Shown: in pieces, positions 37,353-64,000 of the stretch | How the letters are laid out: each line of letters begins with the position of its first letter | Numbering within the stretch: the stretch's first letter is position 1 | Assembly (NCBI RefSeq): GCF_030499575.1 | Contig: NZ_JASTLC010000001.1 | Span: 3,434,001 to 3,498,000, forward strand | Direction of reading: 5' to 3' | DNA: 64,000 nt | Source: Streptomyces sp. DG2A-72 | GTDB lineage: Bacteria; Actinomycetota; Actinomycetes; Streptomycetales; Streptomycetaceae | Notes under the pieces: generated by a model | What the model saw: the letters and a program-made list of their open reading frames with translations, nothing else | The model's database searches: none | What the model was told of the DNA's origin: nothing | Made by a program: the position numbers and the translations under genes

Positions 37353-38960
37353 TCACCTCTCCTTCTGCAGTACGGACAGCGCGGCGATGAGTTCGGCCTG
37401 AGGTTCGGGGTGTACGTCGAGTGCGTCGAGCGGGGCGAGACGGCGCTCGCGTTCGGCGTGCATGACCCGGTCCAGGTGATCGGCGAGCAGTCGTCCGCCC
37501 CGGTCGCGCAGCCGCAGCGCCCCGTGCGCGCCGATCCGCTCGGCGAGCGCCTCACCACCGGACCGCGCCCGGCGACCGCCGAGCAGGGTGGTGGCGGCGA
37601 GGGCGGCGACCACCTCGGCGTCGGGCGCGACGCTCCGGTCGAGGTCGCGCACCTCTTCCTCGGCGAACTCCTCGAGCTCCCGCCGCCACCGTCGTACGGC
37701 CATCCCGATCCGGTGCTCGGCGCTCTCCAGCGACGGATCGCGGTCGGTGAGCCCGGGGGCGCCGGAGGCGGGTTCGCGCCGCCAGGCGTCGTCGACGCGC
37801 TCGTCGGCGGCGGTGACGGCGCACAGCAGGAGAGCGGCAAGGCTCTCCACAAGGGCGTCAAGCAGTTCGCCCGCGGAGCAGTCGAGCGGGAAGGCACGCC
37901 ACCGCTTCAGGGCGTCGCCGGCCAGTACGGCGCCCGCCTGCAAGCGACCCCGCACGCGCGCGTACTCGCTGTCGTAGGCCGAGTCGACGGCGGCGGTGAG
38001 CCGCAGGGCGGCGGCGTACTGGGCGGCGGCGGCGCTGGCCAGCTCGGGCATCCGGGACCGGAGTGATTCCAGAAGGCCGTACGCCGTACGGGCCATCGAG
38101 TGCTGTCGGGCGGCCGGCTCCTGCGCCTGCTGGACGAGCCAGGTCCGCAGCGGCGCCACAGCGGTGGCCGGCAGCAGCCCGCCGCCCCAGGCCGACTCGG
38201 GCAGCTCGGGCACCGTGAACCGGGGTACGTCGCCGAGTCCGGCCTTGGTCAGCAGCGCCGCGTATTGCCGGGACACCTCGGACACGACCTGGTGGGGCAC
38301 CCGGTCCAGGACGGTGACCAGGGTGACGTCGTACTCCTTGGCGGTGCGCAGCAGGTGCCAGGGCACCGCGTCGGCGTACCGGGCCGCCGTGGTGACCATG
38401 AGCCAGATGTCGGCGGCGCAGATCAGCTCCGCGGCGAGGACCCGGTTGTCGGCCACCAGGGAGTCGACGTCGGGCGCGTCGAGGAGGGCGAGCCCGCGCG
38501 GCAGGGTGTCGGCGGTCTCGATCCGCAGCACGCGCGCGGGGTTCTCGCCCGGCAGCAGTAGCTCGTCGCCGGCGTCCTGATGGGGCATCCACACGCGCGT
38601 GAGTTCGGGCAGCACCCGCATGCCGCTGAACCAATGATGGTCTTCCGGGTTGCACACCAGCACCGGAGTCCGCGTCGTCGGGCGCAGCACCCCCGCCTCG
38701 CTGACCCGCCGTCCCACAAGGGAGTTGACCAGCGTCGACTTCCCGGCCCCGGTGGATCCCCCCACCACGGCGAGCAGCGGCGCTTCAGGCTCTCTCAGCC
38801 GGGGCACCAGGTAATCGTCGAGCTGAGCGAGAAGTTCGTCGCGGTTGGCACGCGCGCGTGGCGCCCCCGCCAGGGGCAGCGGGAAGCGTGCGGCGGCGAC
38901 ACGGTCGCGCAGGGCAGAGAGTGCATCGAGCAGCTGAGGCCGTACGTCCAAGGTCACCAC
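37353..38960 (-). CDS. dynA: Dynamin-like GTPase (DynA-like)
   Basis: A 535-residue GTPase without membrane helices. Seen: [19 protein letters not shown] (P-loop near 73), the G2 Thr region [13 protein letters not shown] [20 protein letters not shown] as G3 and [10 protein letters not shown] near the G4 position. A long helical C-terminal half follows, with several Arg/Glu-rich helices. It would pair with the membrane-bound partner encoded three bases downstream. The start is uncertain: the GTG-GTG pair at 38960-38955 was chosen because the frame upstream loses Streptomyces codon bias and becomes AT-richer, including a possible -10 TAAAAT. Confidence 0.7.
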
Positions 38961-39191
38961 ATGCGAAGAATGCCCAATTTTAGGGGATATTTGAAGCATA
39001 TGAGCATGTCTGCGCGCCGACAGGACACAAGGGATGGAAGGGACGAGTGGGGCGAGGGCAAAGCCCAGGCATAACGAGTGCACAACACCCGAGGTGCGAG
39101 ACGCCAAAAGCGATGCACGATTCGTACCTGCCTGCGATTATCAGGACCGCTTCACCGAACCTCCACATCGAGCCACGGAGGCGAAGCAACA

Positions 39192-39278: not shown

Positions 39279-39351
39279 GCCCCCGTAGCTCAGTGGATAG
39301 AGCAGGCGCCTTCTAAGCGCTTGGCCGCAGGTTCGAGTCCTGCCGGGGGCG
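39279..39351 (+). tRNA. tRNA-Arg (anticodon UCU)
   Basis: A 73-nt cloverleaf. Acceptor GCCCCCG (39279-39285) pairs with CGGGGGC (39344-39350), with discriminator G39351. The D arm is GCTC...GAGC. The anticodon stem GGCGC/GCGCT has loop CTTCTAA, placing TCT at 39312-39314. The T arm contains GGTTCGAGTCC. CCA is not encoded. It reads AGA codons, rare in this genome. The defence island begins just downstream, so its 3' end is a candidate integration site. Confidence 0.97.
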
Positions 39352-39382
39352 CTCATTTTTGCAGGTCAGAGCCGCTTTCCAG

Positions 39383-39993: not shown

Positions 39994-42900
39994 TTACCCA
40001 TCCTCTTCTTCCATTTCCGTCTCGGGTTCCGTGGTCAACCCTGCAGCGTCCATCAGGTCCGGGTCCAGGTCGTCCCCCGTCGTACTCCGCCGCCGCTCGT
40101 CAGAGGGCTCCGCCGTCTCCCCTCCTGGAGTCCCATCACTCTCCGCGAGCATCGGAAGGACGTACGCCTGGGCCAGTCCCGCCAGGTGAAGAGGGAGCGG
40201 CAGGGACAGCGCCGCAGCGTAGTCCGGCGCCTGACGCAGCTGGTGTACGGCGAGGGCCAGAGCCTCGGCCTCGTCCGGCTTGCCCAATGCGGGGACGGCC
40301 GGGTCGTCGTCCGCGTGGCAGCCGAGAACCGCGATCTCGACCAAGGTCGGGTTCCAGGCGGGGGTGCCCGCCTGTGAGGTGAGGTTGCCCGCGGCATTAA
40401 CTCGGGTGGCCAGGCGGTCGAGGGCGGGCGACACCGCATGGGTACCGGGGCGTTCCGTGGTGCTGTAGAAGATCCGGTCACCTGAGGGGGCGCCGCCCGA
40501 CGACGGGCTGGTCTGGGCCCAGAAGCCAGCCGGCTGTCCGTGCGGCTTACCGGGTTCCGCCAGACCCCACCACTGCGCGGTCTCCCGTCCGCCACACCCA
40601 CGGACGCGTACAAGGCGCAGCTCATCGTCGAGCCGGCCCGCGGGAGCGTGGCCCGCCTGGATCAGATCCCGCTCGATCCGACCATCCTGCAGCCACGGCC
40701 AGTGCAGCCTGCTGTTCTGCGCGTGGGTGATCAGCGCGGTGGGCTGACCGCGCAGCGAGTGCAGTACACGCTGGAGGAATGCCGCGGTCTCCTTGCGCTG
40801 CTGGGCGAGGTTGGTACGCCACTGCTTGCCGGTCACACGGGAGCTCCCGGGGTACGGGTCGCCGGTCTGTGGGTCAGGCTCGGCGCATGCCTCGGGGTCG
40901 ATCTCGGCTTGCTTCACCAGACCTAGGAGGAAGCGCGGGTACGGCACCCACTTCCCCTCGGCATCGTCCCATCCGCGCACGGCCGCCAGGCCGGCCGCGT
41001 CCGGCAAAGGGGTGGTCAGGACGGCCACGGGCAGGTGCTTGGGCAGCCGGGTCGGGCCGTCCTTGCGGCGCTTCACCATCCACACGGCGGCGTACTGAAG
41101 TCCGTCGGGCAAGTCGTTGCCGAGTGTGTGCTGCGGCAGTACGCGGACGCCGAGCTGGCGCAGTCCGTCGAGCCAGGAGCTGTGGGTGCGATGGCCGAGG
41201 CTGTCCGCGTTGTCGATCTGCCGGTCGGTGGACGGGGTCACGACGAACTGGGTCAGTACCCCCGCGTCGGCACACCCCAGACGGACGGCGAACTTGGGGT
41301 CGGTCGTCAACGGGCGGAAGGTGCTGCGGTGGGCGATCTCCACCAGGGCCAGCTCAGGGTGGTTGGGGTCCGCACCGTCCGCGCTCAGCCATGAGTGCAG
41401 GGCGCGGCGGCGCTCACCGATGGCCGTCGCGATGGCCGCGCCCTTGGCTTTGACGACCGAGTCGGGCACCAGCCGGTCTCCGAGTCCGTCGGCCAGCGGC
41501 AGGCACCGCAGCCGTAGGGTGAGTTCCTCCGTCCGCCATTCCAGAACGACCGGTGCTCCGGGCCTGGCCTCGTCGAAGTCCCGATCCGTGATCGCGGCGG
41601 CGGAAGCGCCGCCGTCACCGTCCAGCCCCAGGGCGTGTGCGAACTGGGCCACTGCTTCCTTCCGCACCTCCGGTGACTGCCACAGCAACCGGACCTCCAC
41701 CAGCGGCAGACCACCGCGATGCGGGTGCCGGCTGGCGATCCGCGCCTGCGCCGCCAGATTCGCCCTGCGCGCCTGGGTTTCACGCAGCAGCTCGGTCTTC
41801 TTGACTTCGTCGGTCCTCGGTTTGGGTCGCCGGTTGTCCGGTGCGCCGATGCCCTTGCCTCGCCCCCGCTTCAGATCGGGTACCCGTACCACCGTCTCCG
41901 GAAGGGCCTGTTCAACCCACTCGGTCAGCTGGGCTCGCTGGTTGGGCATGAAGCCGGTACCGATCTCGTGCTTCCCCATCCTGGTGCTGTGCACGACGGC
42001 GGCGCGGACTCCGCGGCCCTCGCCGATCCAGGAACCGGGTTCGGCGAGGAGTTGTTCGGGGTCGGGGAAGTTACCGGCGAGGCTGAGCCCACGCAGGATG
42101 CCGGCGGTGTCGTTCTCCGACCAGGCGAAGGTGTCGGCCGCCCGGTCCCGGCGCAGCCGGGCGAGTGCGTAGCGCTCGGTGGCCGGTGCTCCGGGCAGCC
42201 AGGGGATGGTGGGTCGCAAGTAGACCGTGGTGGCCTCCCGGTAGGACAGGTTGAGGCGTTTGGTGGCGACCCGCGGATGCGTCGCCCATCGCCGTACGCC
42301 CCAGTGCAGATGGAGGCGCGGCCTGGCGTCGAACGGTGTGGTGTGCAGGGAGATGTTGAGTACGACGGAGAACCACCACTCCTTGCGCTTGACGGTTCGG
42401 CACAGAGGCTGCGACATGAGTTCGGCGCCCTGGTCGCGGGGTCCGCGAGGCACAGCGCGAAAGCGTAGCTCGCCGCCTTCGAAGGGGTAGGGGTCGAGGG
42501 ACAGGACGCGGCGGGCCAACGCGTCGGTGGCGAGCTGGAACTGCCGGGGGTCGGGGGCTGCGGTACCGCCGTCTGTGACGGGGGCGGTGAGCAGTTCGAC
42601 GCCGGGGACCGGTTGCCACTCGGGCAGGTTCCGCTTGAGGCCGGCGCTGGTCGCGAGCAGCAGCGAACGGAACCCGGGATCCTGCCCCGCGCCCCTGGGG
42701 CCGAGCGTGCGCAGCCAGGCGTCCAGGAGCTGCCGCATGGAAGGGCCCGGGAGCGGATCGGTCGCCGAGGCAGGGACGTACATCCAGAAGTCCTCGTCGA
42801 TCCGATGGCTCTGCTCCGCCCCCGCCTCGACGGGGGTACGAGGGCGGGGGCGCACGATCACGTCGGGGGCGAGGGTCTGGAGTACGCCGTCGAGCCGGCG

Positions 42901-43065
42901 AGTGGGCAGGGTCAGCTGCCGTTTCTCCTCGTCGCGCCCGTGGTTGTGCAGTGCGAGAAGTTCCGCGTGCCAGTGTTCGGGAAAGGCGAGTGCGCGGAAG
43001 TCCTCGGTCCAGGACTCGCTGCCCTCGGCAAGGTGGTACGCGGATCGGCGGATGTTCTGGTACAT
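39994..43065 (-). CDS. pPIWI-RE protein (prokaryotic Argonaute-related, RNaseH-fold)
   Basis: A 1023-residue protein matching the pPIWI-RE family, a PIWI lineage whose active site is marked by conserved Arg and Glu. The N-terminal region (to about 430) contains KEWWFSVVLNISLHTTPFDA, characteristic of the family X module. A MID-like part follows, then the RNaseH/PIWI domain with ALITHAQNSRLHWPWLQDGR near 780-800. NPTLVEIAVLGC and LSLPLPLHLAGLAQAYVLP lie towards the end, before an acidic tail. Comparative work proposes that it recognises nucleic acid from invaders, perhaps R-loops, with helicase and nuclease partners, all of which are upstream here. Last gene of the operon; ATG at 43065 with GGGAGAA. 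Confidence 0.85.
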   Translation of the reverse strand: MYQNIRRSAYHLAEGSESWTEDFRALAFPEHWHAELLALHNHGRDEEKRQLTLPTRRLDGVLQTLAPDVIVRPRPRTPVEAGAEQSHRIDEDFWMYVPASATDPLPGPSMRQLLDAWLRTLGPRGAGQDPGFRSLLLATSAGLKRNLPEWQPVPGVELLTAPVTDGGTAAPDPRQFQLATDALARRVLSLDPYPFEGGELRFRAVPRGPRDQGAELMSQPLCRTVKRKEWWFSVVLNISLHTTPFDARPRLHLHWGVRRWATHPRVATKRLNLSYREATTVYLRPTIPWLPGAPATERYALARLRRDRAADTFAWSENDTAGILRGLSLAGNFPDPEQLLAEPGSWIGEGRGVRAAVVHSTRMGKHEIGTGFMPNQRAQLTEWVEQALPETVVRVPDLKRGRGKGIGAPDNRRPKPRTDEVKKTELLRETQARRANLAAQARIASRHPHRGGLPLVEVRLLWQSPEVRKEAVAQFAHALGLDGDGGASAAAITDRDFDEARPGAPVVLEWRTEELTLRLRCLPLADGLGDRLVPDSVVKAKGAAIATAIGERRRALHSWLSADGADPNHPELALVEIAHRSTFRPLTTDPKFAVRLGCADAGVLTQFVVTPSTDRQIDNADSLGHRTHSSWLDGLRQLGVRVLPQHTLGNDLPDGLQYAAVWMVKRRKDGPTRLPKHLPVAVLTTPLPDAAGLAAVRGWDDAEGKWVPYPRFLLGLVKQAEIDPEACAEPDPQTGDPYPGSSRVTGKQWRTNLAQQRKETAAFLQRVLHSLRGQPTALITHAQNSRLHWPWLQDGRIERDLIQAGHAPAGRLDDELRLVRVRGCGGRETAQWWGLAEPGKPHGQPAGFWAQTSPSSGGAPSGDRIFYSTTERPGTHAVSPALDRLATRVNAAGNLTSQAGTPAWNPTLVEIAVLGCHADDDPAVPALGKPDEAEALALAVHQLRQAPDYAAALSLPLPLHLAGLAQAYVLPMLAESDGTPGGETAEPSDERRRSTTGDDLDPDLMDAAGLTTEPETEMEEEDG

Positions 43066-43146
43066 GTCCGTTCTCCCTGCGATGTCGTACGTGGTCGGTC
43101 GCGTGCCGCGTCTTCCACGGCCTTGGAGGTGGCGGGTCTCGGTGTG

Positions 43147-46100
43147 TCAGCCGGTGCCGCGCGGCTCGGGCGGAGCGTCCAGGCCGCACAGCGCCTCGTA
43201 CAACGGCCGATAGAGCAGCTTGACGAGTTCGGTGTCGGCCGGGTCGGGATCGGTACCGCCAGTGGTGTTCTCGGTGCCGGTGCCGGTGAAGTACGGGGCG
43301 AGAACGTCCCGAAGGCGTACCAGCAGTCCCGGGTCGCTGGTGCGGGACCGCCCGCTCCTGTCAGCGACGAGTGCCTGTGCCGCCGCCAGCCGCGGTGCGA
43401 AGGCGGCGTCGACGAACACGACGCGGGCCGGCACACCACCGCGGACGAGGCGGCCGATGACCTGCCAGATGGTGACGAGCTGGTCCCAGACGAAGGACTC
43501 CTTCTCGTCGTCGGGAAGCGCGGAGAAGATGTAGGGGCGGGACAGTACGTGCCGCCAGACACGGCGGGCAACGGTCCGGAAGGTGCCGCCCGCCGCGTCG
43601 AGACCGTCGGCCTCTGTCACCAGCTCACCGAACGTTCCGTCCGGGCTGGTCAGTTGACCGCGTACGAACCGGCTCGCCCAGTCGTTGATGGCGAACACCG
43701 CCAGGGAAAGGTCATCGGGGCGAGGGTGGGGGCGGACCAGGAAGAACACCGTCCCGAACGCCGCCACCCTCTCCTCGCCGGGGCGCTGGGGAACGGTGAG
43801 AATGTTGTGCCCTCGCTCGACGGCGAGCAGGGGGGCGACGAGCAGTTCGGCGTCCGGGTCCTCGGCGAAGGAGGCGAGGTCTCCGCGCCGCACCGCCCCT
43901 GTGCTCCGTGTCCGGCTCCCCGTCGGCGCCGCGCCGTCGACCGCCGCTTCCAGTTCCGCGTCGTCGGCGGCCAAGACACGCACCCGGCCGCGCCAGCGCG
44001 GGATCTCGTCCAGGGCCGCGGCGGCCACCCCGGCCTCCGCGTAGCTGCCGACCAGAAGGAGGGCGCGCCTGCGGCGCTGGTCGGGGATCTGGGCGAGTTC
44101 GCTCTGCAGCGGGGAGGTGGTTCCGTCCCTGCGGGGACGGGCCAGCCGGTCGATCATCAGGCGCAGGATGTCCTCGCGTTTGTCGGGGTCCTGTCCGGAG
44201 AGGCGGATCGGCTGCCCGGCCGCGTCGTAGAGGAACTCGGTGCGGAACACGGTGTCCCGAATGGACCGCAGCGCCTTGCTCTGCGGTTTCAGGACCGCCC
44301 GGACGGGAGCGAGGACATGAGCGCGGGTGGACGTGCCGGCCCAGCTGGTGCCCGACATCAGCAGAACGTGCGGACCGGCCTTCTCACGGCCGGGATCGGC
44401 GCCGAGCTGGGGAAGGCCGAGCAGCAGTTCGCGGCCCACGCCCGCGCAGCGGAAGAAGCGCAGAGTTCCGGTGCGGCGGCCATCCTTGTCGCGGGCGGCG
44501 GCACGTTCGTCGATCAGGTACTGGAAGCCGAGGACGTTACCCATGGGCGCTTCAGGCACAAGCGGTGCGTAGTCAAGGGGTGGTCGGCGGGTCAGTTCGT
44601 GGCTCGCCGCGTCGAGCCGCAGCGCTGCCTCCACCTGGGGCCATAGGAATGTCACCCGGTCAAGGCGCTGGTGCAGCGCGGCCAGCACGAGGGTGAACTC
44701 CAGTCGCCGCGCGTTCAGTTCACGCCACTCCTCGGTGAGAGGAACCTCCTCGCGCGCCGGCTCCTTGCCCTGGCGGGCTGTGGACGGCGGGCGCTGCTGA
44801 GGACCCGGCGCTCCGGCGAGGAAGGAGTCGAGGAGCGCGCGGACCCGGCTGCGTGTCCGCTTCTCGTCGAGGGTGTGCAGGACGTCGTGGGCGAGGGCGG
44901 TGAGCTCGTCGGCGGGCGTCAGATAGGGGCCCCGCCCGCCGAGCGGATCGTCCCGGAAGGTGTCGAAGAACGCGGTGATCTCGCTACGGCGGTGCGCCCA
45001 GGGCACTTGCGGTTCGGGGACCTCGTGTCCTCCCGGCTGATCCTTGCCGTCACTGTCGTCCTCGTCTTCGTACAGCGCGTTCTCGTCCTCGACATCCCCC
45101 GCCTCCGTGCCGTCGGGGCGCCGGACGGACCAGCCGGGCGTGAGCGGATACCAGGCGTTGAGCAGCTTCTCCTGGAGGGTCCATGCGCTGAAGTAGTCGA
45201 TCTGCGCCCAGTTCCGCAGCCCTTCGTCGTCGATGAGCATGGCGTACAGCCGGTCCGCCGCGGAGCCGACGATGTCCAGGGCGGCGGACCACCGTTCCAC
45301 GTCCTGGTCGGAGAGCTGGAGCCGTCCCTGCCGGGCGAGTTCGGCGATCTCATGGGTCTGCAGCTGGTCGAGCCAGGATTCGGAGACACCGGTGGTGACG
45401 AGAGTGGCCGACGGTGCGAACATCTGGTCCAGCTGCATCTGTACGCGGTCGGCCTCGTCGACGACCACGATGTCGCTGCGCAGGCAGGCCAGTTCCAGGT
45501 AGCGCAGGCGTTCGGCGTTGAGCTGGCGCGGTACGGCCGTCTGCACAAGGCTGGCGGGGTTCGCCACCCAGATCCGCGCGTCCACGAGGTCACGCGCGGC
45601 GGAGTGGCGAGGGCAGGCACTCCACAGCGGACAGGCGTGCGGGGTGCCCCACTCCTCCTCTTCGTCACTGTCGTCCTCGGGGGGCTGCCTCCTGGCGGCG
45701 CCACGGGCGCGTTCGAGTTCGCGTACGGCGTGTTCGGCCGCCGACTCCTGAGCGTCGCCGGAGTCGGCGGCCGGCCGCACGGGGTGCAGGCCGCCGCACG
45801 GTGCGTCGTTGTAGCGAAGCGGCTCCGATGTGTCGAGGGCGCGCAGCGCGTCCAGCGGACAGGCGGTGCTGAGGTGTCTGAAGGCCGCGTTGGTGTGGGC
45901 GAGGAGTGAGTGCGCTCCGCGCGCGGCGAGCCTGCGGTGCAGCCGCTGGGTGTGCTGAGGCCGTGTGGTGCCGCCCTGGATCAAGGCGGCCTTCAGGCCG
46001 AGACCGCGGAAGAGTTCGGTCAGGGTGAGCTGCTCGGCCACGTCACCGACGACGAGTGTGATGCGCAGGGAGTTGTGGTGCGCCCAGACCGCGAGCAGAG

Positions 46101-46914
46101 TCATCAGGGTCGACTTGCCGGCGCCGACCATGCCGACGAGATGGGTGAGCCGGTCGAGCGGCAGCGCGGACGCCGGCGCGAAGGCGGCCCCGTCCGGGGT
46201 GCGGGTGTCGAGGTCGAGGTCGTGGAGGCGCTGGGCCCAGTTGCCTGCCTTTCGGCCGAGACGCCGCTCCTCCTCGTCCATCCAGCGCGCCACGTCGGCG
46301 AGTTCGTCGAGCGGTACGTCCAGCGGGCCTGCGGTGGCGGGGCGTTCGGTGGTGAGGGGATGACCCGGGAGGGGGTCTCGTACCAGCTCGGACGGGATGG
46401 TGACGGAAGTGCGCCGGTGGCGGCGGTCCATGAAGCGGTGCTCGCCCTCCACCGCCTGCTCCAGCGGCTTGACGGCGAAGCCGGGCAGCTGCGCGAGCGC
46501 TTCGTCGTACACGGCGAAGCGGTCGGCGGCGACCACGAGGGGAAGCCGGTACGCCGGTTCCCCCTCCGCCGGGACACGGTACGCGCGCAGCCTTTCCGGC
46601 AGTCGCAGGTAGGCGTCCAGGGACTGGTGCCACATCCGGGCGCGGCGCATCGGCCAGAGCAGGTGCCGGGCCGCGGTGAGCGCGACCTGTTCCGCCTCGC
46701 CGACGGACAGCTTCGCGGCGCGCGCGAAGGCCAGGCCGTAGCCGCCCAGGAGCGTCCACGCTCCGTCGGCGGCGTGGCCGGGCGCCACGGTCTCCATCAG
46801 CCGCAGGGCGAGCTCGACCTGGCACAGCAGAGCGGGCCGGGTCCTGGCGTGCTCTTCGGGCCAGGGCCCCAACGCGGCTACGACCGGTTGGTACCAGCTG
46901 CTGCGGTCACGCAT
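43147..46914 (-). CDS. DinG-like helicase of the pPIWI-RE system
   Basis: A 1255-residue superfamily 2 helicase-like protein. An N-terminal 250-residue module (SSWYQPVVAALGPWPEEHAR start) is followed by Walker A LVGMVGAGKSTLM near 266, a Cys-containing insert (CPLWSACPRHS, near 440, possibly the Fe-S region of DinG/XPD relatives), VVVDEADRVQ near 483, and the C-terminal helicase motif QVIGRLVRGGVPARV near 1150. A central acidic low-complexity loop (EDEDDSDGKD) is present. Its ATG lies inside the 3' end of the REase gene (8-base overlap ATGCGTGA), indicating coupling. Likely unwinds or tracks on invader DNA for the nuclease. Confidence 0.82.
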   Translation of the reverse strand: MRDRSSWYQPVVAALGPWPEEHARTRPALLCQVELALRLMETVAPGHAADGAWTLLGGYGLAFARAAKLSVGEAEQVALTAARHLLWPMRRARMWHQSLDAYLRLPERLRAYRVPAEGEPAYRLPLVVAADRFAVYDEALAQLPGFAVKPLEQAVEGEHRFMDRRHRRTSVTIPSELVRDPLPGHPLTTERPATAGPLDVPLDELADVARWMDEEERRLGRKAGNWAQRLHDLDLDTRTPDGAAFAPASALPLDRLTHLVGMVGAGKSTLMTLLAVWAHHNSLRITLVVGDVAEQLTLTELFRGLGLKAALIQGGTTRPQHTQRLHRRLAARGAHSLLAHTNAAFRHLSTACPLDALRALDTSEPLRYNDAPCGGLHPVRPAADSGDAQESAAEHAVRELERARGAARRQPPEDDSDEEEEWGTPHACPLWSACPRHSAARDLVDARIWVANPASLVQTAVPRQLNAERLRYLELACLRSDIVVVDEADRVQMQLDQMFAPSATLVTTGVSESWLDQLQTHEIAELARQGRLQLSDQDVERWSAALDIVGSAADRLYAMLIDDEGLRNWAQIDYFSAWTLQEKLLNAWYPLTPGWSVRRPDGTEAGDVEDENALYEDEDDSDGKDQPGGHEVPEPQVPWAHRRSEITAFFDTFRDDPLGGRGPYLTPADELTALAHDVLHTLDEKRTRSRVRALLDSFLAGAPGPQQRPPSTARQGKEPAREEVPLTEEWRELNARRLEFTLVLAALHQRLDRVTFLWPQVEAALRLDAASHELTRRPPLDYAPLVPEAPMGNVLGFQYLIDERAAARDKDGRRTGTLRFFRCAGVGRELLLGLPQLGADPGREKAGPHVLLMSGTSWAGTSTRAHVLAPVRAVLKPQSKALRSIRDTVFRTEFLYDAAGQPIRLSGQDPDKREDILRLMIDRLARPRRDGTTSPLQSELAQIPDQRRRRALLLVGSYAEAGVAAAALDEIPRWRGRVRVLAADDAELEAAVDGAAPTGSRTRSTGAVRRGDLASFAEDPDAELLVAPLLAVERGHNILTVPQRPGEERVAAFGTVFFLVRPHPRPDDLSLAVFAINDWASRFVRGQLTSPDGTFGELVTEADGLDAAGGTFRTVARRVWRHVLSRPYIFSALPDDEKESFVWDQLVTIWQVIGRLVRGGVPARVVFVDAAFAPRLAAAQALVADRSGRSRTSDPGLLVRLRDVLAPYFTGTGTENTTGGTDPDPADTELVKLLYRPLYEALCGLDAPPEPRGTG

Positions 46915-48175
46915 CGTCCACTCCGTCCTGCCCGGCGTCCTCGGCCGGTGTCGTGTTGTCAGCGGGGCGGTTCCCAGTGGCTCGTCGGCCGGGGCCCGAC
47001 GGTCCGCCCGCTCCAGTGGGAAGGGGGCCGATGAAGGCGTCCGGCCCGCAGTCACCTGACAGACGCAGCCGTGCGGCCCGCACCAGCTGCCTGTCCGTCA
47101 GCAGCCGCAGTCCACCCGCCTGAGCGCCCCGCTCCCTGGCGTAGCTGTCGAGGTAGTCGCGGCGTGCGCGGACCCTGAATTCCGGGACGACCCAGCAGGC
47201 TTCGTCGTAGGGCGGTTCGGCGCGCACCGCGGTCGCGCTGCGGCCGAGGAAGGCGGGATGCGCCCAGTCCTTGACGTCCACGGCCCACACATGGCCGTCG
47301 GGGAACGTGACGCGCACGTCGTACGAGTCGAAGTTGGGCCACATCTCGACGGTGAGCCCCAGCGCCCGCAGCTCGCTCTCCAGAGAGATCTCCGCCTGTC
47401 CCGGCCCGGTGACGGACAGCCGCAGCGGTTTGCGCAGTTGGCGCACCTCTCCCACCTGCGCCGCCACGAGTTCCCGGCCGTGCGGCGCGGGACCCCGGTG
47501 CCGGCACTGGTCCCGCTCACACCACCACTCGGTGTCGGAGACCGGATGCAGCAGGGTCAGGCAGCGGTGGCAGCACAGGTAGGAGCCGTCCCGCCGGAAC
47601 CCGGCGGGGACGGGGGCGTAGATCTCCTCGACGAGGAACCGGACCGGGTCGAGGAAGAGGTCGCAGCTGACCTCGGCCCATTCCTCCTCGGTGAGGACCG
47701 GCCGGGTGACCAGGAGGCGGCGGAAGGCCGTGTACGACTCGGGCGAGGACATGGCGCGGCAGGCCCGCAGGGCTTCGTGGATGACCATGCGGTCGTACTG
47801 GCGTCCGGTGCTGTCGCCGTATCCGCGGACGGCGAGTTCGTGGCAGAGCTGTGCGGGTTCCCCCGAGTCCTCGTCGATCAGCCGGTCCGCGGTGTCGAAC
47901 AGGTCGGGGGGCAGTTGGTCGAGGGGCCAGTTGCCGAGCGGCCGGGCGCGGGCCCAGCGCATCATCTCGGGGACACCGGTCGGGGGCCTGGCCTCGTTGC
48001 GCAGGCACTGGAGGACCAGGGCGTCCAGGGCGCGCTGCGCGCTGGGCGGGTAGGGCAGGGTGAAGGCGTCGAGGTCGTCGACGGCGGCCAGATGCAGGAC
48101 GGCGGTGGCCACGTCCCGGAGCAGGACGACGTCCGGGTTGAACAGCCAGTCCGGCGTGGGCTGTTGGTCAGTCAT
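46907..48175 (-). CDS. Restriction endonuclease-like protein of the pPIWI-RE system
   Basis: A 422-residue protein. A helical N-terminal domain (DWLFNPDVVLLRDVATAVLH start) precedes a zinc ribbon CCHRC...CERDQC near 200-225. The PD-(D/E)xK nuclease core follows, with FDSYDVRVTFPDG and AVDVKDW near 285-303, where Asp, Asp and Lys would form the metal site. It then ends with a disordered Pro/Gly-rich tail. This matches the REase of the pPIWI-RE three-gene unit. ATG at 48175 overlaps the upstream stop (ATGACTGA). Between nuclease and helicase genes the same kind of 8-base overlap occurs. Confidence 0.82.
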   Translation of the reverse strand: MTDQQPTPDWLFNPDVVLLRDVATAVLHLAAVDDLDAFTLPYPPSAQRALDALVLQCLRNEARPPTGVPEMMRWARARPLGNWPLDQLPPDLFDTADRLIDEDSGEPAQLCHELAVRGYGDSTGRQYDRMVIHEALRACRAMSSPESYTAFRRLLVTRPVLTEEEWAEVSCDLFLDPVRFLVEEIYAPVPAGFRRDGSYLCCHRCLTLLHPVSDTEWWCERDQCRHRGPAPHGRELVAAQVGEVRQLRKPLRLSVTGPGQAEISLESELRALGLTVEMWPNFDSYDVRVTFPDGHVWAVDVKDWAHPAFLGRSATAVRAEPPYDEACWVVPEFRVRARRDYLDSYARERGAQAGGLRLLTDRQLVRAARLRLSGDCGPDAFIGPLPTGAGGPSGPGRRATGNRPADNTTPAEDAGQDGVDDA

Positions 48176-49964
48176 GGACCGGAACACCTCCTCGCGACTG
48201 GGGTGGGACGCTCGGCTTCGGGCCGCCCGCGTGCGAGGGCACGTCGGCGCCGTGCGGCAGCGGATGGTCGGTGACGTAGGCGGTGCCGGGCCGGCACCAG
48301 GTCCGCGCCTGGCAGCCGTGGCAGTGACGTCCGGTCCTCGGTTCGTACGTGGTGTCGTCCAGGAGCGGCTGGGCGAGGCCGGCGATGACGTCCCGGGCTT
48401 CGTCGACGATCGCGGTGCGGCCGGGATCGACGCGTTCGAGCCTGCTCTCTCCGTGGCCCTCGCGCAGATGCTCCAGTTCGACCCAGGAGCGGCGCGGGTC
48501 GTCGCCCAGCGCCCCCGTGTGGAACAACAGGACGCCGAGGGCCAGTTGTGGGTACGTGCGGAGCAGCGGCTCCCGATCCCACAACGGGCGGGCGGACGTC
48601 TTCGTCTCGCGCCAGATCCACCGGCCGCGATGGGTGTACACCAGATCGGGTACGGCGAGCACGACGACATCGAGCTCCGGCACATAGGCCGTGACCCGAT
48701 GCTGTACGAGTACGCGCTCGTCGGCGTCGAGTCCGTTGAGCGGGCACAGCAGCCGGTGCTCGGCCAGCATTCCGGCGGCCTCACGCGCGGACGCGTCGTC
48801 CAGACCGGTCTCAGACCGCAGCGTGGCCGGGTCGGGGGACGCGCTGTCCCGGCAGCCGTGCACCGGCCGTTCGCCGTGTCGCGCGTCCAGCCAGGAGTCG
48901 ACGACCCTGCCGCGCCGCGCTCCCTCGTTCTCGGCGGACAGATCGCTGAGATGCAGGCGCCGCACCAGGTGGTACTGGGCAGGGCATTCGGCGTACAGCC
49001 TCAGGTCCCAGGCGGAAACGGAGCGGCGCTTGCGTGCGAAGGACGGGGGCCGCCCGCCCCACAGACCCGGGGTGCGCCTCAGGTCCGTACAGCCGGCGAT
49101 GGCCTTGCAGTCGACGCAGCTCTCGCCGGGCCGGGTACCGGTCGCGGTGGTGGCGGCGAGGAACGCCGGCACGGCGTCGCCCTCGAACCGCTTCCTCGCC
49201 TCGCCGGGCCCCTCGCCGAACCGTGGTGCCACGCCCAGCAGCGGTTCCACCGAGCCGTCGGCGCATCCCACGTCGAAGACGCGCACCAGGGCAGGTGAGC
49301 GGGTGGTGTCGGTCGCCTCGGCCGGGGGTTCGTCACGCGTCCTGCGCCGGGGCGTGGGTGCCCCGTACGCCATCACCTGTGCCACGGCTCCGAGTTCGGC
49401 CTCGGGGCGGCTGCTCTTGGCCCGGCCCAGCGAGGGCAGCCACAGATCGCGCACCGCCCCGTCGGCGGAGGCGTACATGCGGCCCCACAGGGTGTGCTCG
49501 TACTGCCGGGCCCCGCGCGGGTCGGGGACGTCCGTGCGGCGGGTGCGCCACGTCCACGAGAGTTTGACCGCCGCGGTCGGCGGCAGGCCCGACTCCTCGG
49601 CGGCGGCCTGCTCCCGGGTGCGGGCCGCGATGTACCGCTCCAGGGCGTGGGCGGTCCACGCGAGGTGGACGGGGTGGACCGGCGCGCCGCGGCCGCGGAA
49701 CGGTCCACGGGTGCCGCGCAGTTCCGTACGCACCCGCTCGACGGACCAGCCATGGTGCTCCACGAGGTCGAGCGCCGTGAAGAGCGGGACGAACCAGAAC
49801 TCCTCGTACGGCGTGGACAGGAACGGCACGGCCGGTTCGGGCACGAGCTGGGGCCGCATCGCGATGCGGCGGTGCGTGGGGCAGGCTGCGGCGTCGGGCC
49901 GAGCCATCCGGGGACTCGCCCTGATCAGCCAGTCGTCTCCGGCGACGCCCGGTGGATTCTGCAT
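48168..49964 (-). CDS. Cas4/RecB-like PD-(D/E)xK nuclease, first gene of pPIWI-RE operon
   Basis: A 598-residue protein with Cas4/AddB-like character. SAWDLRLYAECPAQYHLVRR resembles the N-terminal helix and Cys region of RecB-family nucleases. VPDLVYTHRGRWIWRETKTS (about 440-458) holds Asp and Glu-x-Lys of the catalytic core. Two CxxCx5C sets are present, CVDCKAIAGC near 285 and CHGCQARTWC near 550, suggesting an iron-sulfur cluster. The first 250 residues have no domain I know. ATG at 49964 is preceded by GGGGGTCACC. It is fused operonically to REase, helicase and pPIWI-RE genes, a fourth component beyond the usual three. Confidence 0.75.
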   Translation of the reverse strand: MQNPPGVAGDDWLIRASPRMARPDAAACPTHRRIAMRPQLVPEPAVPFLSTPYEEFWFVPLFTALDLVEHHGWSVERVRTELRGTRGPFRGRGAPVHPVHLAWTAHALERYIAARTREQAAAEESGLPPTAAVKLSWTWRTRRTDVPDPRGARQYEHTLWGRMYASADGAVRDLWLPSLGRAKSSRPEAELGAVAQVMAYGAPTPRRRTRDEPPAEATDTTRSPALVRVFDVGCADGSVEPLLGVAPRFGEGPGEARKRFEGDAVPAFLAATTATGTRPGESCVDCKAIAGCTDLRRTPGLWGGRPPSFARKRRSVSAWDLRLYAECPAQYHLVRRLHLSDLSAENEGARRGRVVDSWLDARHGERPVHGCRDSASPDPATLRSETGLDDASAREAAGMLAEHRLLCPLNGLDADERVLVQHRVTAYVPELDVVVLAVPDLVYTHRGRWIWRETKTSARPLWDREPLLRTYPQLALGVLLFHTGALGDDPRRSWVELEHLREGHGESRLERVDPGRTAIVDEARDVIAGLAQPLLDDTTYEPRTGRHCHGCQARTWCRPGTAYVTDHPLPHGADVPSHAGGPKPSVPPQSRGGVPVHD

Positions 49965-50160
49965 GGTGACCCCCGTGGAGGGCGGCATGGGCAGGAGGGC
50001 GTCCAGGACCGTCGGGCTTCACACACCCTCACACGAAGCCCCGGACGCGACCCCAGCATGGCATGCACCTGTGAACTGAGTCCATGCATATCTCGCAAGA
50101 GAGTCACTTCACGCTACTCTGGTGTGCTGAATGGTGCGGGAGGCGAAGGAGCTGCGCGGC

Positions 50161-51705
50161 GTGGACGCGGATTCGTACGCGGAGATGTACAAGCCAGGCA
50201 CGGGCGATCTGATCGACGGGCGCTACGAGTTGATGGAGTCGCTCGGCAAGGGCGGGATAGCCCACGTCTGGCGCGCCCGCGAGGTCTTCCCAGGCCATGA
50301 GGCTCCCGAGAATCACGAGGTTGCCGCGGGGCGCGAGGTCGCGGTGAAGTTCCTGCGCCACGACTCCGAGGCCCTGTACGCCCTGGACCCGGACGAGAGG
50401 GCGGCCGAACTCGCCGTCAGAAACGCCCGGTTCCGGCGCGAGGCCACACTGCTGGGCACGCTCGACCACCCGGGCATCACGGAGCTGTACGGCAGCGGAT
50501 CGCACCAGGGTGTGCCGTACATCGCCATGCGCTTGGTGACCGGAGTGAGTCTGCGGACCTTCCTCGACGAGCACACACCGCTGCCGCTGATGTCGGCGAT
50601 CGCCATCGCCGTACAGATGGCGGGAGCACTCGCCTGCGCACACACGTTGCCCGTCGTGCACCGGGACCTCAAGCCTCCCAACATCATGATCGACGACGAA
50701 GGGGCGGTCGTCCTCATCGACTTCGGTATCGCCAAGCCGCTGCGGGCCGACGCCACCCGGTACACGGCGCACGGCTCCACGCTGGGCACCCGCGGCTACC
50801 TGGCACCCGAACAGCTCCTGGAGCGCGAGCCGACCGCGCGTACGGACGTGTACTGCTTCGGCTGCGTCTTCTACGAACTGCTCACCGGACGCCCGCCGTT
50901 CCCGCTCGGCGCGGACTCCGGTCTCACCGAGAGACATCTCTACGAGGATCCCCTGCCGCCGAGCGTGTACGCCGCGGGCATCCCCGAGGCGATCGACGAC
51001 CTGGTGATCCGCATGCTCGCCAAGCAGCCCGGACAGCGTCCGCCCGTCGACGAGGTCCTGGCGATCCTCGCCCCGCTCGGCCCCCGGCCCGGCGACCCCG
51101 AACCCCGACCGCGCACCCACCCCGACCCCACGGCCCCGCTGCGCCGGCCCGCGGACCGGGCTCCGCGCACGCACCGCGCTCCCGCCGCGCCGCCGGTCGC
51201 GTCCCCGGTGGCGGGCGAGGAGGAGTGGCTGGACGCCCGCGCGGTGGAACTCCTCTGCACACGGGCCGAGTCGGAGATCGCCGCCGGTAAACCGGGAGAC
51301 GCGGTCGGCCGTCTACGCGAACTGGCGGAGCGGGTGCGTGCGGAGTGGGGAGCGCGCCGCCCGCTGGTGCGCCGCGTATGGCGGGGGGCGGCGGACGGGC
51401 TCCGGTTGGCCTGGGACTTCGGCTCCGCGGCCCGTCTCTACCAGGGCATCGACAACACTCTCCTGCACGGCGACGGTCCGGCCGAGCGGGCGGAGCGCGC
51501 GGTGGTGCAGCTGCGGCTGGCCGAATGCCGCCTCGCCTTCGGTGAGCTGGACGCCGCCGTCGCCACCGTCGACGCCGCGGGACGTACGGCCGCGGGCCTG
51601 CCGCGCGAGCTCGCCGTACAGGTCGAGTCCGTGCGGCGCGAGGTCGATGTCCAGCTCTCTGCCCGGCTCGCGGATGCGGACGATCAGGGCGGGCCAGGGG
51701 CCTGA
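50161..51705 (+). CDS. Serine/threonine protein kinase with C-terminal helical domain
   Basis: A kinase of about 514 residues: ESLGKGGIAHVWRA (P-loop), VAVKFLRHD (Lys), VVHRDLKPPNIMID (catalytic loop near 166), IDFGIAKPL (DFG) and GTRGYLAPEQ (APE). A Pro/Arg-rich linker follows, then about 150 helical residues resembling TPR units (ELAERVRAEWGARRPLVRRV). No membrane helix, unlike PASTA kinases, so cytoplasmic. Start uncertain: GTG at 50161 has GAAGGAG upstream; ATG at 50131 is also in frame. A TACTCT -10-like box lies at 50115-50120. It is divergent from the pPIWI-RE operon and convergent with a DNA methylase gene; kinases of this kind occur in several phage-defence loci. Confidence 0.88.
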   Translation: MDADSYAEMYKPGTGDLIDGRYELMESLGKGGIAHVWRAREVFPGHEAPENHEVAAGREVAVKFLRHDSEALYALDPDERAAELAVRNARFRREATLLGTLDHPGITELYGSGSHQGVPYIAMRLVTGVSLRTFLDEHTPLPLMSAIAIAVQMAGALACAHTLPVVHRDLKPPNIMIDDEGAVVLIDFGIAKPLRADATRYTAHGSTLGTRGYLAPEQLLEREPTARTDVYCFGCVFYELLTGRPPFPLGADSGLTERHLYEDPLPPSVYAAGIPEAIDDLVIRMLAKQPGQRPPVDEVLAILAPLGPRPGDPEPRPRTHPDPTAPLRRPADRAPRTHRAPAAPPVASPVAGEEEWLDARAVELLCTRAESEIAAGKPGDAVGRLRELAERVRAEWGARRPLVRRVWRGAADGLRLAWDFGSAARLYQGIDNTLLHGDGPAERAERAVVQLRLAECRLAFGELDAAVATVDAAGRTAAGLPRELAVQVESVRREVDVQLSARLADADDQGGPGA

Positions 51706-51771: not shown

Positions 51772-53793
51772 CTACGCCCCGCCCGCTAGCCGCCCGGCCG
51801 CCAGTTCGTCGCCAAGATCGTGGACGAGGTCCGCACCGAGCTCGGCGGTGCGCCGCGCCAGCTGTTCGAAGGCGGCGAGCTCGCGGAACGCCTCACCGTA
51901 GCGCCGCTGTTCACGGAGCGGCACCTGGCGGACCTGCAGGCGCCGGACATCGATACGGGAGGAGCTCGTCGCGTGCGTCCCGGCCTGCCGGACATTTGCC
52001 GGGGCGCGCAGCGAACCGGCGAGGAACCAGGCGTCGAGCTGCTCGGGCTGCACTCGCACGGCGTGGAGCTGGGGCCCCAGAGCGGTCGGCGGCCCTTCGT
52101 GGACCCAAGCCGAGAACGCCCGTGCCACCCCCACCACTACGATGTCCCCGGGTTCGGCAATCACGGCCTCGCGCACCGCGGGGTCGTCGGCGGTGAGATG
52201 CCCCCTGGGTTCACCGCCCGACAGCAGATCGGGAACCGTCAGGAGCGGAATGTCCTCGGCGGACGGCACCCCGGTACGGACCGCTGCCTCCGGTGGTTGC
52301 TGACCGCCGCGTAGGGTGAGCGCCCCCGCCCGCGCCAGTTCGGCGACGGTGGTCGCCGTCGGCGAGTCCTGTGCGGAGGAGGTCAGTTCGAGCGACGCGA
52401 GCAGCCGGGCCGACTTGGTCACCCTGGCGGCCAGATCCTTGAACTCCCGCCAGGCTTCCGCCAGTCGAGGTGCGGTGTCCGCCGGGGACGGGGTGATGTG
52501 ACGTCCCGGAGTGAGGTCGACCTCGTCGTCGAGGAGCTCGATGACGGGTACGCGTCGTACGAAGGGAGAAACCTCGGCCGGATCCGTCCGCCCGACGGCC
52601 TCGCGCACGAAGTCGCCGATCGCCATCCAGTCGGGGGCCCACTCGCGGCCCGGGTCGCGGGGAAAGCGGGACACGCCGTCGGCCACCAGCAGGTGGCCTC
52701 CCGTATGTAGCTCCTCACCTGGTACGGGCGCCCGCAGCACCCACAGGTGCAGGGAGACACTGTGCGGCGCGGCGCAGCCCGGCGGCAGCGCGACGACGGC
52801 CTTCAACTGGCCGGTGCGCAGCAGCGACCCGCGGATGCGCCGACCCGCTTTACGCGCCGCCACGGCGGGGGGCAGCAGCAGCACGGCCGCGCCGCCGGGC
52901 CGCAGCCCGGCCAGACAGTGCTGGACCCAGGCGAGTTCGGGTTCGGTGCGCGGCGGCAGCCCGTGGCTCCAGCGGGCGTCCGTGGCCAACTCCTCGTATC
53001 CCCAGTCCCGTTCGTTGAACGGCGGGTTGCACAGGACGATGTCGGCGGGGATGCCGGCGAACGGGTCGTCGCGCAGCGAGTCCCCTTCGCGTACGTCGAT
53101 GTGCGCGGGCTCTGTCCCCGACAGCTCCCCGGCGAGGCACAGACGGGCTTCGGCGAGTGCCGCGAGTACGGGATCACGGTCGCCGCCCAGCAGGGTCGGC
53201 GCCTCACCGCCTGCCGTCTTGACCGCCTCGGTCGCGGCCATCAGGAGATGGCCGGTGCCACACGCGGGGTCCATCACCGTGACGCCGCCGTCGACGGCCG
53301 CGACGCGGGTGGCGAGCTCCGCCATAAGCTCGGCCAGCGGCTCGGGTGTCGTGGCGATCTGGCGCACATGGACGTCCAGCCAGCGCCGCAGCAGAAAGGC
53401 GAAGGTCTCCGAGCGTCCTTCGCGCCACCCGAGGTCTACAGCCCGCTCGATCAGCGCCGCCACCTCTTCGGGGAACGCGGACTCACCTGCCGCGCGCCGA
53501 CGGGCGAGCCTCCTGCCCACCTCCGCGACCGCCGCCCCCGTCTCGTCGCGTCCGCCGAGCGCCTCGAAGCGGGGCCAGAGCCATTCCCGCTCGGCGGACT
53601 TCTTGAGCTTCTTGTTGTCGCGCAGCCAGTTCTCGATGTCGGTGAGGGAGAACTGGGGATTGACATCCGTGCCGGCGATCCGGGTGGGGAACGACGGATG
53701 ACGCCGCCGCCAGTTGCTGACGGCGGCCCGCCCGACGCCCGCGAGACGAGCGATTTCCGCCAGAGACACAGGTACGGCACCGGGCGTGGACAT
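51772..53793 (-). CDS. N6-adenine DNA methyltransferase with helix-turn-helix and specificity-like C terminus
   Basis: A 673-residue protein with three parts. First, an N-terminal helix-turn-helix (VSLAEIARLAGVGRAAVSNW). Then a type I HsdM-like methylase domain with DPACGTGHLLMAATEA near 178 and CNPPFNERDW near 257 (the NPPF catalytic motif). Last, a C-terminal half resembling an HsdS target-recognition domain (PLLTVPDLLSGG, PGDIVVVGV, RRLQVRQVPLREQRRYGEAF). A single-chain modification enzyme of this type would methylate adenine for self-recognition or regulation. No endonuclease subunit is adjacent; nearby candidates are the RelE-UvrD protein or the convergent kinase's partners. ATG at 53793 preferred over an upstream frame start. 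Confidence 0.85.
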   Translation of the reverse strand: MSTPGAVPVSLAEIARLAGVGRAAVSNWRRRHPSFPTRIAGTDVNPQFSLTDIENWLRDNKKLKKSAEREWLWPRFEALGGRDETGAAVAEVGRRLARRRAAGESAFPEEVAALIERAVDLGWREGRSETFAFLLRRWLDVHVRQIATTPEPLAELMAELATRVAAVDGGVTVMDPACGTGHLLMAATEAVKTAGGEAPTLLGGDRDPVLAALAEARLCLAGELSGTEPAHIDVREGDSLRDDPFAGIPADIVLCNPPFNERDWGYEELATDARWSHGLPPRTEPELAWVQHCLAGLRPGGAAVLLLPPAVAARKAGRRIRGSLLRTGQLKAVVALPPGCAAPHSVSLHLWVLRAPVPGEELHTGGHLLVADGVSRFPRDPGREWAPDWMAIGDFVREAVGRTDPAEVSPFVRRVPVIELLDDEVDLTPGRHITPSPADTAPRLAEAWREFKDLAARVTKSARLLASLELTSSAQDSPTATTVAELARAGALTLRGGQQPPEAAVRTGVPSAEDIPLLTVPDLLSGGEPRGHLTADDPAVREAVIAEPGDIVVVGVARAFSAWVHEGPPTALGPQLHAVRVQPEQLDAWFLAGSLRAPANVRQAGTHATSSSRIDVRRLQVRQVPLREQRRYGEAFRELAAFEQLARRTAELGADLVHDLGDELAAGRLAGGA

Positions 53794-53950
53794 CTGGACT
53801 CCCTGGACGTTTCTCAATGACTGCGGACACTCCCCCACCTACGGGCGCGTGTTCAAGCCACTTTCCCCTCCCGCGCGTCCGGCAGACTACTACGGCAAGA
53901 CGCGAGCATTGACATTGTTCACAGGCCGACCGCAGGTATCGCCTTTCCCG

Positions 53951-56101: not shown

Positions 56102-56161
56102 ACACGCCTCGCCTTCCTGCGCCAAGCCCTACTACAACAGCAAGCATTGACTGAGTTTACA

Positions 56162-63451: not shown

Positions 63452-64000
63452 GCGTCGGCTCCGAGCTGGATCGTGGCGGCCGGGCGGTAGAGGAAGACGC
63501 CGAGGACGTCCGGGTCGCCCTGCGGGACGGCCTTCAGGCCGGCGAGGCGGGCTCGGGCGGCGGTGCGGACCCGGTGGTGCGAAGCTTCCAGCTCCTTCGC
63601 GGCCGCATTGGAGCGCAGCCGCAGTTCGTCCATGAGGCCGGTGTCGAGGGCGGCGAGGATCGACGCGATGTGGTCGGTGGCGAAGCCCGGATCGGAGTTG
63701 CCAGTTGCACGGGCCTCCAGGAGGGCCAGGGCCTCTTCGTCGGGCAGCCACTGGGGCGCCTCGGCTCTGCCGTGGAAGGCCACCACCCGTGCGTCCTCGG
63801 CGAGTTGGGTGCGTACGTCGCCGTCGCGGGTGGGCAGGCTCAGCTGGAAGCGGTGCCGGACGAGGAGCATCGTGGTGGGCCGTCGTACGGCACTCGTACG
63901 GACCACGCCGCAGCGGCGGGCCGGGCGCTGCCAGGCGGGGAACTTCTCGTCCAGGGCGGTGTCCAGGACGAAGCGGGCGATCGCGGCCACCACCGGGTCG
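63448..64000 (-). CDS. drmD: SNF2-type helicase, DISARM DrmD-like (C-terminal end only)
   Basis: The last 184 residues are inside the window and the frame continues past the right edge. They read TTMLLVRHRFQLSLP, then TDHIASILAALDTGLMDELR, a helical section and DPDVLGVFLYRPAATI at the end. This fits the tail of long SNF2-like helicases of class 1 DISARM, which precede drmMI. No helicase motif lies in the visible part, so the call rests on the tail and the ATGA-coupled methylase. Confidence 0.55.
   Translation of the reverse strand, partial: DPVVAAIARFVLDTALDEKFPAWQRPARRCGVVRTSAVRRPTTMLLVRHRFQLSLPTRDGDVRTQLAEDARVVAFHGRAEAPQWLPDEEALALLEARATGNSDPGFATDHIASILAALDTGLMDELRLRSNAAAKELEASHHRVRTAARARLAGLKAVPQGDPDVLGVFLYRPAATIQLGADA

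Follow-up and report, generated by a model that had tools for sequence, protein, structure and literature searches.

The closest described system and the Streptomyces locus

Three-gene pPIWI-RE systems are the closest described relatives of the locus treated here. In the accessible part of Burroughs, Iyer and Aravind 2013 (PMC3702460), they consist of three genes, with the restriction endonuclease (REase) gene strictly first. For PIWI-RE biochemistry, one study of a member was found (PMC10991935). By its accessible part, the Pseudomonas stutzeri protein is an RNA-guided DNA nuclease, for which D525 and D610 are essential, and the knock-out is ciprofloxacin-sensitive and affected in cell division. 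We analyzed a stretch of 64,000 nucleotides from Streptomyces sp. DG2A-72 (contig NZ_JASTLC010000001.1, positions 3,434,001 to 3,498,000), called "the window" below. It carries a four-gene pPIWI-RE operon at 39994-49964 on the minus strand, with a kinase gene and an N6-adenine methyltransferase (MTase)-like gene beside it.

With the three-gene system, the window shares a pPIWI-RE protein with X, MID and RNase H domains, a DinG helicase with a Z domain and a Cys-rich insert, an REase with a Y domain and a zinc ribbon, and the order REase-DinG-pPIWI. It differs in that a PD-(D/E)XK gene precedes the REase gene, which is thus not first. Furthermore, the window type adds the divergent kinase and the MTase-like gene, and some four-gene lineages have lost the REase site. 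We read the locus as encoding a PIWI-RE defence complex that is gated by the kinase and has the Cas4-like PD-(D/E)XK protein for its main nuclease, at a probability of about 0.5. The features are:

39994..43065, minus strand: pPIWI-RE protein, 1023 aa, with X, MID and RNase H-like domains
43147..46914, minus strand: DinG-like SF2 helicase, with N-terminal Z domain, Walker A and DEAD box
46907..48175, minus strand: REase subunit, with Y domain, zinc ribbon and REase domain, D..DxK intact here
48168..49964, minus strand: Cas4/AdnA-like PD-(D/E)XK protein, 598 aa, presumed Fe-S
49965..50130, no strand: intergenic region of 166 bp between the divergent kinase gene and four-gene operon
50131..51705, plus strand: Hanks-type Ser/Thr protein kinase, 524 aa, with K/HRD/DFG triad (Pfam Pkinase, E 2.2e-39)
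51772..53838, minus strand: N6-adenine MTase-like protein, 688 aa, with N-terminal helix-turn-helix-like part, HsdM-like core and C-terminal specificity-like domain

Gene identities were verified by Pfam and PADLOC models. The pPIWI-RE protein matched pPIWI_RE_X (PF13111), MID (PF18157) and RNaseH (PF13032), with E-values down to 3.9e-129, the helicase matched pPIWI_RE_Z, the REase both pPIWI_RE_Y and pPIWI_RE_REase, and the first protein of the operon PDDEXK_1 (E 2.3e-19). All four had PADLOC matches: PprPIWI, PprDinG, PprRE and PprPDDEXK. The last (PDLC02423, E 2.4e-204) was matched near its full length, at profile positions 2-445 of 449. The transcription order is PD-(D/E)XK, REase, DinG and pPIWI-RE, all co-directional. 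Exact 8-bp overlaps join the PD-(D/E)XK stop to the REase start and the REase stop to the DinG start; the third junction, DinG to pPIWI-RE, is an 81-bp gap. The spacing suggests that the four genes form one transcript. An ATG at 49964 agrees with conservation as start of the Cas4-like gene, with an alternative ATG at 49988. From the gene orientation, 49965..50130 presumably holds divergent promoters.

The operon itself is real and well conserved, and it is already known as four PADLOC models. The initial annotation, made from the letters alone, had named these four parts, their order and both 8-bp overlaps, and had taken the published account to be one of three genes; all of this agrees with the models, the coordinates and the 2013 description. 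Its four-gene core stood, and it overlooked the flanking kinase and MTase-like genes as well as the two-part build of the nuclease. With the flank counted, the unit here probably comprises six genes.

The first gene encodes a Cas4/AdnA-like nuclease

The Cas4-like protein has two invariant C..CxxCx5C sets, with the active site in its C-terminal half only. C28, C283, C286 and C292 lie in the degenerate N-terminal half, and C327, C548, C551 and C557 in the C-terminal nuclease half, together with D440, E453 and K455. This D/E/K site was intact in 126/126 four-gene loci. Some genomes are present in both collections that make up the 126 loci, and rearranged or cut loci (L131, L148, L149 and L161) were excluded from the nuclease and REase motif counts. 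With Cas4, this protein shares the PD-(D/E)XK nuclease domain and a C..CxxCx(n)C set; the cysteines presumably hold Fe-S clusters.

In a fold search, the predicted model of the C-terminal half had an AdnA/Cas4-type fold, closest to AdnA; the N-terminal half was barely tested by this search. Overall, the protein resembles two Cas4/AdnA-type nucleases in tandem. A duplication is suggested by the same helix/strand order in both halves of the model, together with the Cys pattern. Aligning the two halves with hhalign gave a local probability of 38% (P 3.4e-4) and a global probability of 0.1%, with no alignment. Among PDB sequences, the Cas4-like protein (P0004) had matches of chance level only, and P0001 and P0002 had none. 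NCBIfam had no match for the Cas4-like protein, the Cas4 equivalog TIGR00372 included; one relative reached TIGR00372 at E 0.089, with 12.6 bits against a cut-off of 65.

The gene looks like a clade-level feature of pPIWI-RE operons

Among 394 genomes sampled across the class, 14 had a match to MID_pPIWI_RE, of which seven carried the PD-(D/E)XK gene in the operon, six did not and one was cut by a contig end. In an order-wide sample, pPIWI-RE was found in 93/391 genomes. There, 87 places were read from a larger number of matches, after removal of short or interrupted frames and of some second copies, and five lacked an REase or a DinG match. The remaining 82 were REase, DinG and pPIWI-RE operons; the PD-(D/E)XK gene was present in 46 and absent from 36. 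Conservation of the gene beside pPIWI-RE in other genomes, which the initial annotation had set as a test of its proposal, thus does not refute it. In a PIWI tree of 97 rows, de-duplicated at 88% identity, the 74 four-gene rows formed one clade (SH-aLRT 96) and the four-gene state needed one change. This makes the fourth gene look like a clade-level feature of one origin, at a sampling depth that covers Actinomycetota. Two cyanobacterial plasmid operons were without it, and phage records gave no pPIWI-RE match.

The family is wider than the operon. PprPDDEXK matches occurred in 31 genomes of the class-wide sample. Of the 24 besides the seven with the gene in the operon, 20 (loci L050-L069) had no pPIWI-RE, DinG or REase match nearby; the other four were weak (E about 1e-4), and one protein checked among them was an AddA/RecB-like helicase-nuclease. 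Six of the stand-alone relatives (L050, L051, L054, L057, L058 and L067) keep all ten cysteines, have lost the ExK residues and are apparent pseudo-nucleases. Two plasmids, from Streptomyces (L172, 7449-11151) and Rhodococcus (L173, 7521-11092), share one arrangement: a stand-alone PD-(D/E)XK gene, then a gene for ~265 aa, then a convergent ImmA/IrrE gene. Two further loci stood out. In L161 (9026-11983), a partial Cas4-like match lies inside the pPIWI-RE frame, with REase and DinG missing and kinase and MTase remaining. A Streptomyces plasmid (L169, 9606-11359) has a three-gene pPIWI-RE operon; directly after it come a hypothetical gene and a gene annotated as restriction endonuclease.

AdnA is a repair nuclease, and AdnAB is the actinobacterial analogue of RecBCD. 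The closeness of the C-terminal half to AdnA would suit a role in DNA repair or replication instead of defence, with DinG, the AdnA-like nuclease and PIWI processing R-loops or stalled forks, and so would the P. stutzeri knock-out phenotype in the accessible part of PMC10991935. A repair function fits poorly with the patchy distribution over genomes, with similarity that crosses orders and with a type IIG/DrmMI-like gene nearby, and we consider it unlikely.

Decay of the REase site was seen only beside the Cas4-like gene

The D..DxK triad of the REase was intact in 20/20 aligned three-gene operons and in 98/126 four-gene loci. Loss in 28/126 against 0/20 gives a Fisher p of 0.014, for rows that are related and overlapping, so that the number of events weighs more than p; the 20 are the three-gene REases that remained after those below 150 bits were left unaligned. 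Among de-duplicated tree rows, the site was lost in 21/74, or in 16/74 when only loss of [DE]xK was counted, corresponding to four tree changes by the loose definition and two by the strict one. In a 59-row set, a single clade of the eight strict-loss rows was rejected (p-AU 0.016), for a group that was named post hoc from the tree. The zinc-ribbon cysteines were mostly kept in four-gene operons (51, 51, 51 and 47 of 51). Since the protein is retained with most of these cysteines, it may have a structural role. The pattern suggests that the cutting role was handed over from the REase to the Cas4-like nuclease.

The initial annotation had proposed that the Cas4-like protein generates guide- or spacer-like fragments. 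It would then trim invader fragments that load pPIWI-RE, as Cas4 does with prespacers, and the REase or another nuclease would cut the target. The Cas4/AdnA-type fold, the first position in the operon and the active site intact in 126/126 loci are compatible with such a guide maker. However, where the REase site is lost and the PIWI protein is seemingly inactive (0/51, see below), the Cas4-like protein would be the only active nuclease of the four. This weakens the guide-maker proposal, and REase site loss that was seen only beside the Cas4-like gene fits an effector better. We therefore regard fragment generation as unsupported and improbable.

In the inferred catalytic columns of the window pPIWI-RE, T and H stand in place of D. 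Both Asp were present in 0/51 four-gene and 0/22 three-gene PIWI proteins. The idea that the fourth nuclease compensates for a dead PIWI was rejected, as three-gene PIWIs lack the Asp pair too. In the DinG helicases, four cysteines (352, 373, 428 and 434, counted from 46914) were invariant in 51/51 four-gene and 29/29 three-gene proteins aligned.

A kinase and an MTase-like gene flank the operon

Many other genomes have the kinase and N6-MTase-like genes beside the operon, arranged as they are here. Across 79 named loci, the best 80 of 134 from a PIWI alignment search and biased to the relatives of the window, PD-(D/E)XK, REase and DinG were each present in 77, the kinase in 68 and the MTase in 59. 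In the order-wide sample, the kinase accompanied 35/46 four-gene operons, always upstream and on the opposite strand, and 1/36 three-gene operons. The MTase accompanied 24/46 and 6/36, respectively, and both together 23/46 and 0/36. The kinase required one tree change and the MTase seven. The kinase triad was intact in all 107 loci read.

Protein distances of all partners tracked those of PIWI (r 0.91-0.97, n=37), with shared descent uncorrected by a housekeeping-gene control. For each of the six genes, the loci of Umezawaea and Nocardia stercoris (L117, L118) were closer to the window than those of two Streptomyces (L126, L130), which is what joint movement of the six would produce.

Kinase and MTase might merely be frequent neighbours in defence islands, outside the system. 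The lability of the MTase, the absence of the kinase from one subclade and the commonness of the MTase family in the order speak for this. Yet their strand is fixed and their order mostly so, the next commonest neighbour family reached only 8/79 loci, the protein distances match, and the kinase triad is conserved throughout. Altogether, we find mere neighbourhood doubtful.

The core of the window MTase has intact DPACGTG and NPPF motifs. Of 85 copies, motif IV was intact in 43, degraded in 38 (38/81 readable) and unread in four, and one clade of 15 rows was degraded throughout. Modification-based self-marking was rejected for the systems as a whole, given this degradation; it is further opposed by the C-terminal specificity-like domain, which is not hypervariable. 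Among near relatives, conservation in its stretch 561-620 exceeds that of the core, which is not so for 451-560. Three orphan relatives of ~60% identity had no adjoining kinase or pPIWI-RE and grouped inside the operonic copies; a fourth stretch (L292) had no MTase call.

Decay was nested. The REase site was lost in 0/43 loci with an intact MTase, 7/38 with a degraded one, 20/41 with none found and 1/4 with an unread one; at a few of the loci with "none found", L125 and L127 for example, the contig may simply be cut. The Cas4-like nuclease and the kinase stayed intact throughout. Such nesting suggests that, in the lineage of the window, REase and MTase are linked in the manner of a restriction-modification system. 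It rests on few independent events, and many loci without an intact MTase still keep the REase.

A clade of five rows without MTase and with the REase site lost has an NB-ARC/TPR (STAND-type) gene, convergent and at most 7 bp from the pPIWI-RE stop (L141, L143, L144, L156 and L158; L143 by sequence cluster only).

A proposed defence complex under kinase control

In the kinase-gated complex that we favour, pPIWI-RE, probably unable to cut, would hold a small guide and sense matching or R-loop-like invader DNA. DinG would open the duplex, and the C-terminal PD-(D/E)XK site of the Cas4/AdnA-like protein, as main nuclease, would cut the exposed strand, while its degenerate Cys-bearing N-terminal half might grip or gate the DNA. 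The REase would be the ancestral nuclease, intact here and no longer needed alongside the Cas4-like protein, and activation of the complex would fall to the divergent kinase. In the lineage of the window, the N6-MTase may mark or read host DNA, and in sister lineages the MTases without catalytic motif may only bind DNA or S-adenosylmethionine (SAM). Gene content, synteny, the conservation and decay of motifs, the single tree change for the added nuclease and the fold of its C-terminal half in a predicted model are seen at the level of sequence; the assembly of a complex, guide use, the order of events, Fe-S clusters, kinase gating and defence itself are what the proposal would add.

A more specific version is six-gene, kinase-gated PIWI-RE immunity, in which the recruited tandem nuclease replaced the REase, and the MTase became a non-catalytic DNA/SAM sensor in about half of the copies. 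We hold this to be possible, at somewhat less than even odds. If true, the six-gene system would be Argonaute-like with modification-based self recognition.

Several observations weigh against the proposed complex. When a mixture model was applied to a smaller set, the four-gene state again lay on one side of a branch, of which the support was 85 and not starred. By alignment columns that included no active sequence for reference, the catalytic Asp pair is probably missing from pPIWI-RE, and its absence from the 22 three-gene PIWIs makes the added nuclease no simple substitute. Sequence support for the tandem duplication is weak. Strict REase losses fall into two clades only, and the three-gene sample numbers 20. 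Neither flanking gene is core-essential, the kinase being absent from a 13-row subclade and the MTase having changed seven times. The MTase family is common, with members in 269/372 genomes of the order (E up to 1e-60), and the orphan MTases are nested among operonic copies.

The wider neighbourhood

Adjoining the MTase gene, a UvrD-like helicase with an N-terminal extension (53951-56125, minus strand) has a homologue at the same place in a near relative (L084). A large frame at 59297-64000 (minus strand) matches DrmMI, type IIG and Pfam Eco57I/MmeI models and is a further sign of a defence island; PglX is one of the many MTase models that it matches, though weakly (E 3.3e-15). On the other side lies a tRNA:

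39279-39352, plus strand: tRNA-Arg (tct), ~640 bp beyond the pPIWI-RE stop

Beyond it are an adjacent pair of dynamin-like GTPases (35112-37349 and 37353-39107, minus strand) and a PknG-like kinase with rubredoxin, kinase and TPR domains (18918-21437, plus strand). The tRNA-Arg gene also stands beside the operon in L090, L092 and L093. A tRNA-integrated island was considered and dropped: no part of it of at least 14 bases recurs exactly elsewhere in the window, and tRNA-Arg was absent from 27/30 other loci scanned.

Comparison with known systems

The fourth gene is not new as such, having been catalogued in 2023 as PprPDDEXK in PADLOC-DB 2.0.0. Compared by models and not by system definition, that database matches all four core proteins, and the kinase and MTase match other, generic models. 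The names PprPDDEXK, PprDinG and PprPIWI occurred in no paper text of the literature searched (the name PprRE was outside this search).

ACE1 (PDB 9iac, 9iab), an Argonaute-associated Cas4 family protein compared here by PDB titles, has chains of 266-269 residues against 598 in the window protein; no paper on it was found in the literature searched. We take its partner to be a classical prokaryotic Argonaute. AdnAB carries a fused UvrD helicase, which the window protein lacks, being fused instead to a second, degenerate half.

Pgl (type 2 BREX) likewise combines an N6-MTase and a Ser/Thr kinase in Streptomyces defence, by the accessible part of PMC4365076; here the effector is a PIWI-RE complex instead. 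No PglZ was among the matches listed for the window proteins scanned, which cover part of the window. For the MADS and BREX comparison, six window proteins and the four core proteins were scanned. Against the MADS models (gene set mad1-mad8), the kinase fits PD-T4-6 better than mad6, and the MTase fits MTase_I better than mad2.

To these accounts, our analysis adds the decay of the REase, the double nuclease and the flanking kinase and MTase genes; none was found in the literature searched, which lies mostly outside subscription papers. Operons that have or lack an intact REase site, an intact MTase motif or a kinase are natural experiments in which the Cas4-like nuclease is constant, and the survey points to this nuclease as the part to mutate first. 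Relative to the three-gene system, the window type would couple Argonaute-like sensing with signalling by a kinase and, perhaps, with DNA methylation.

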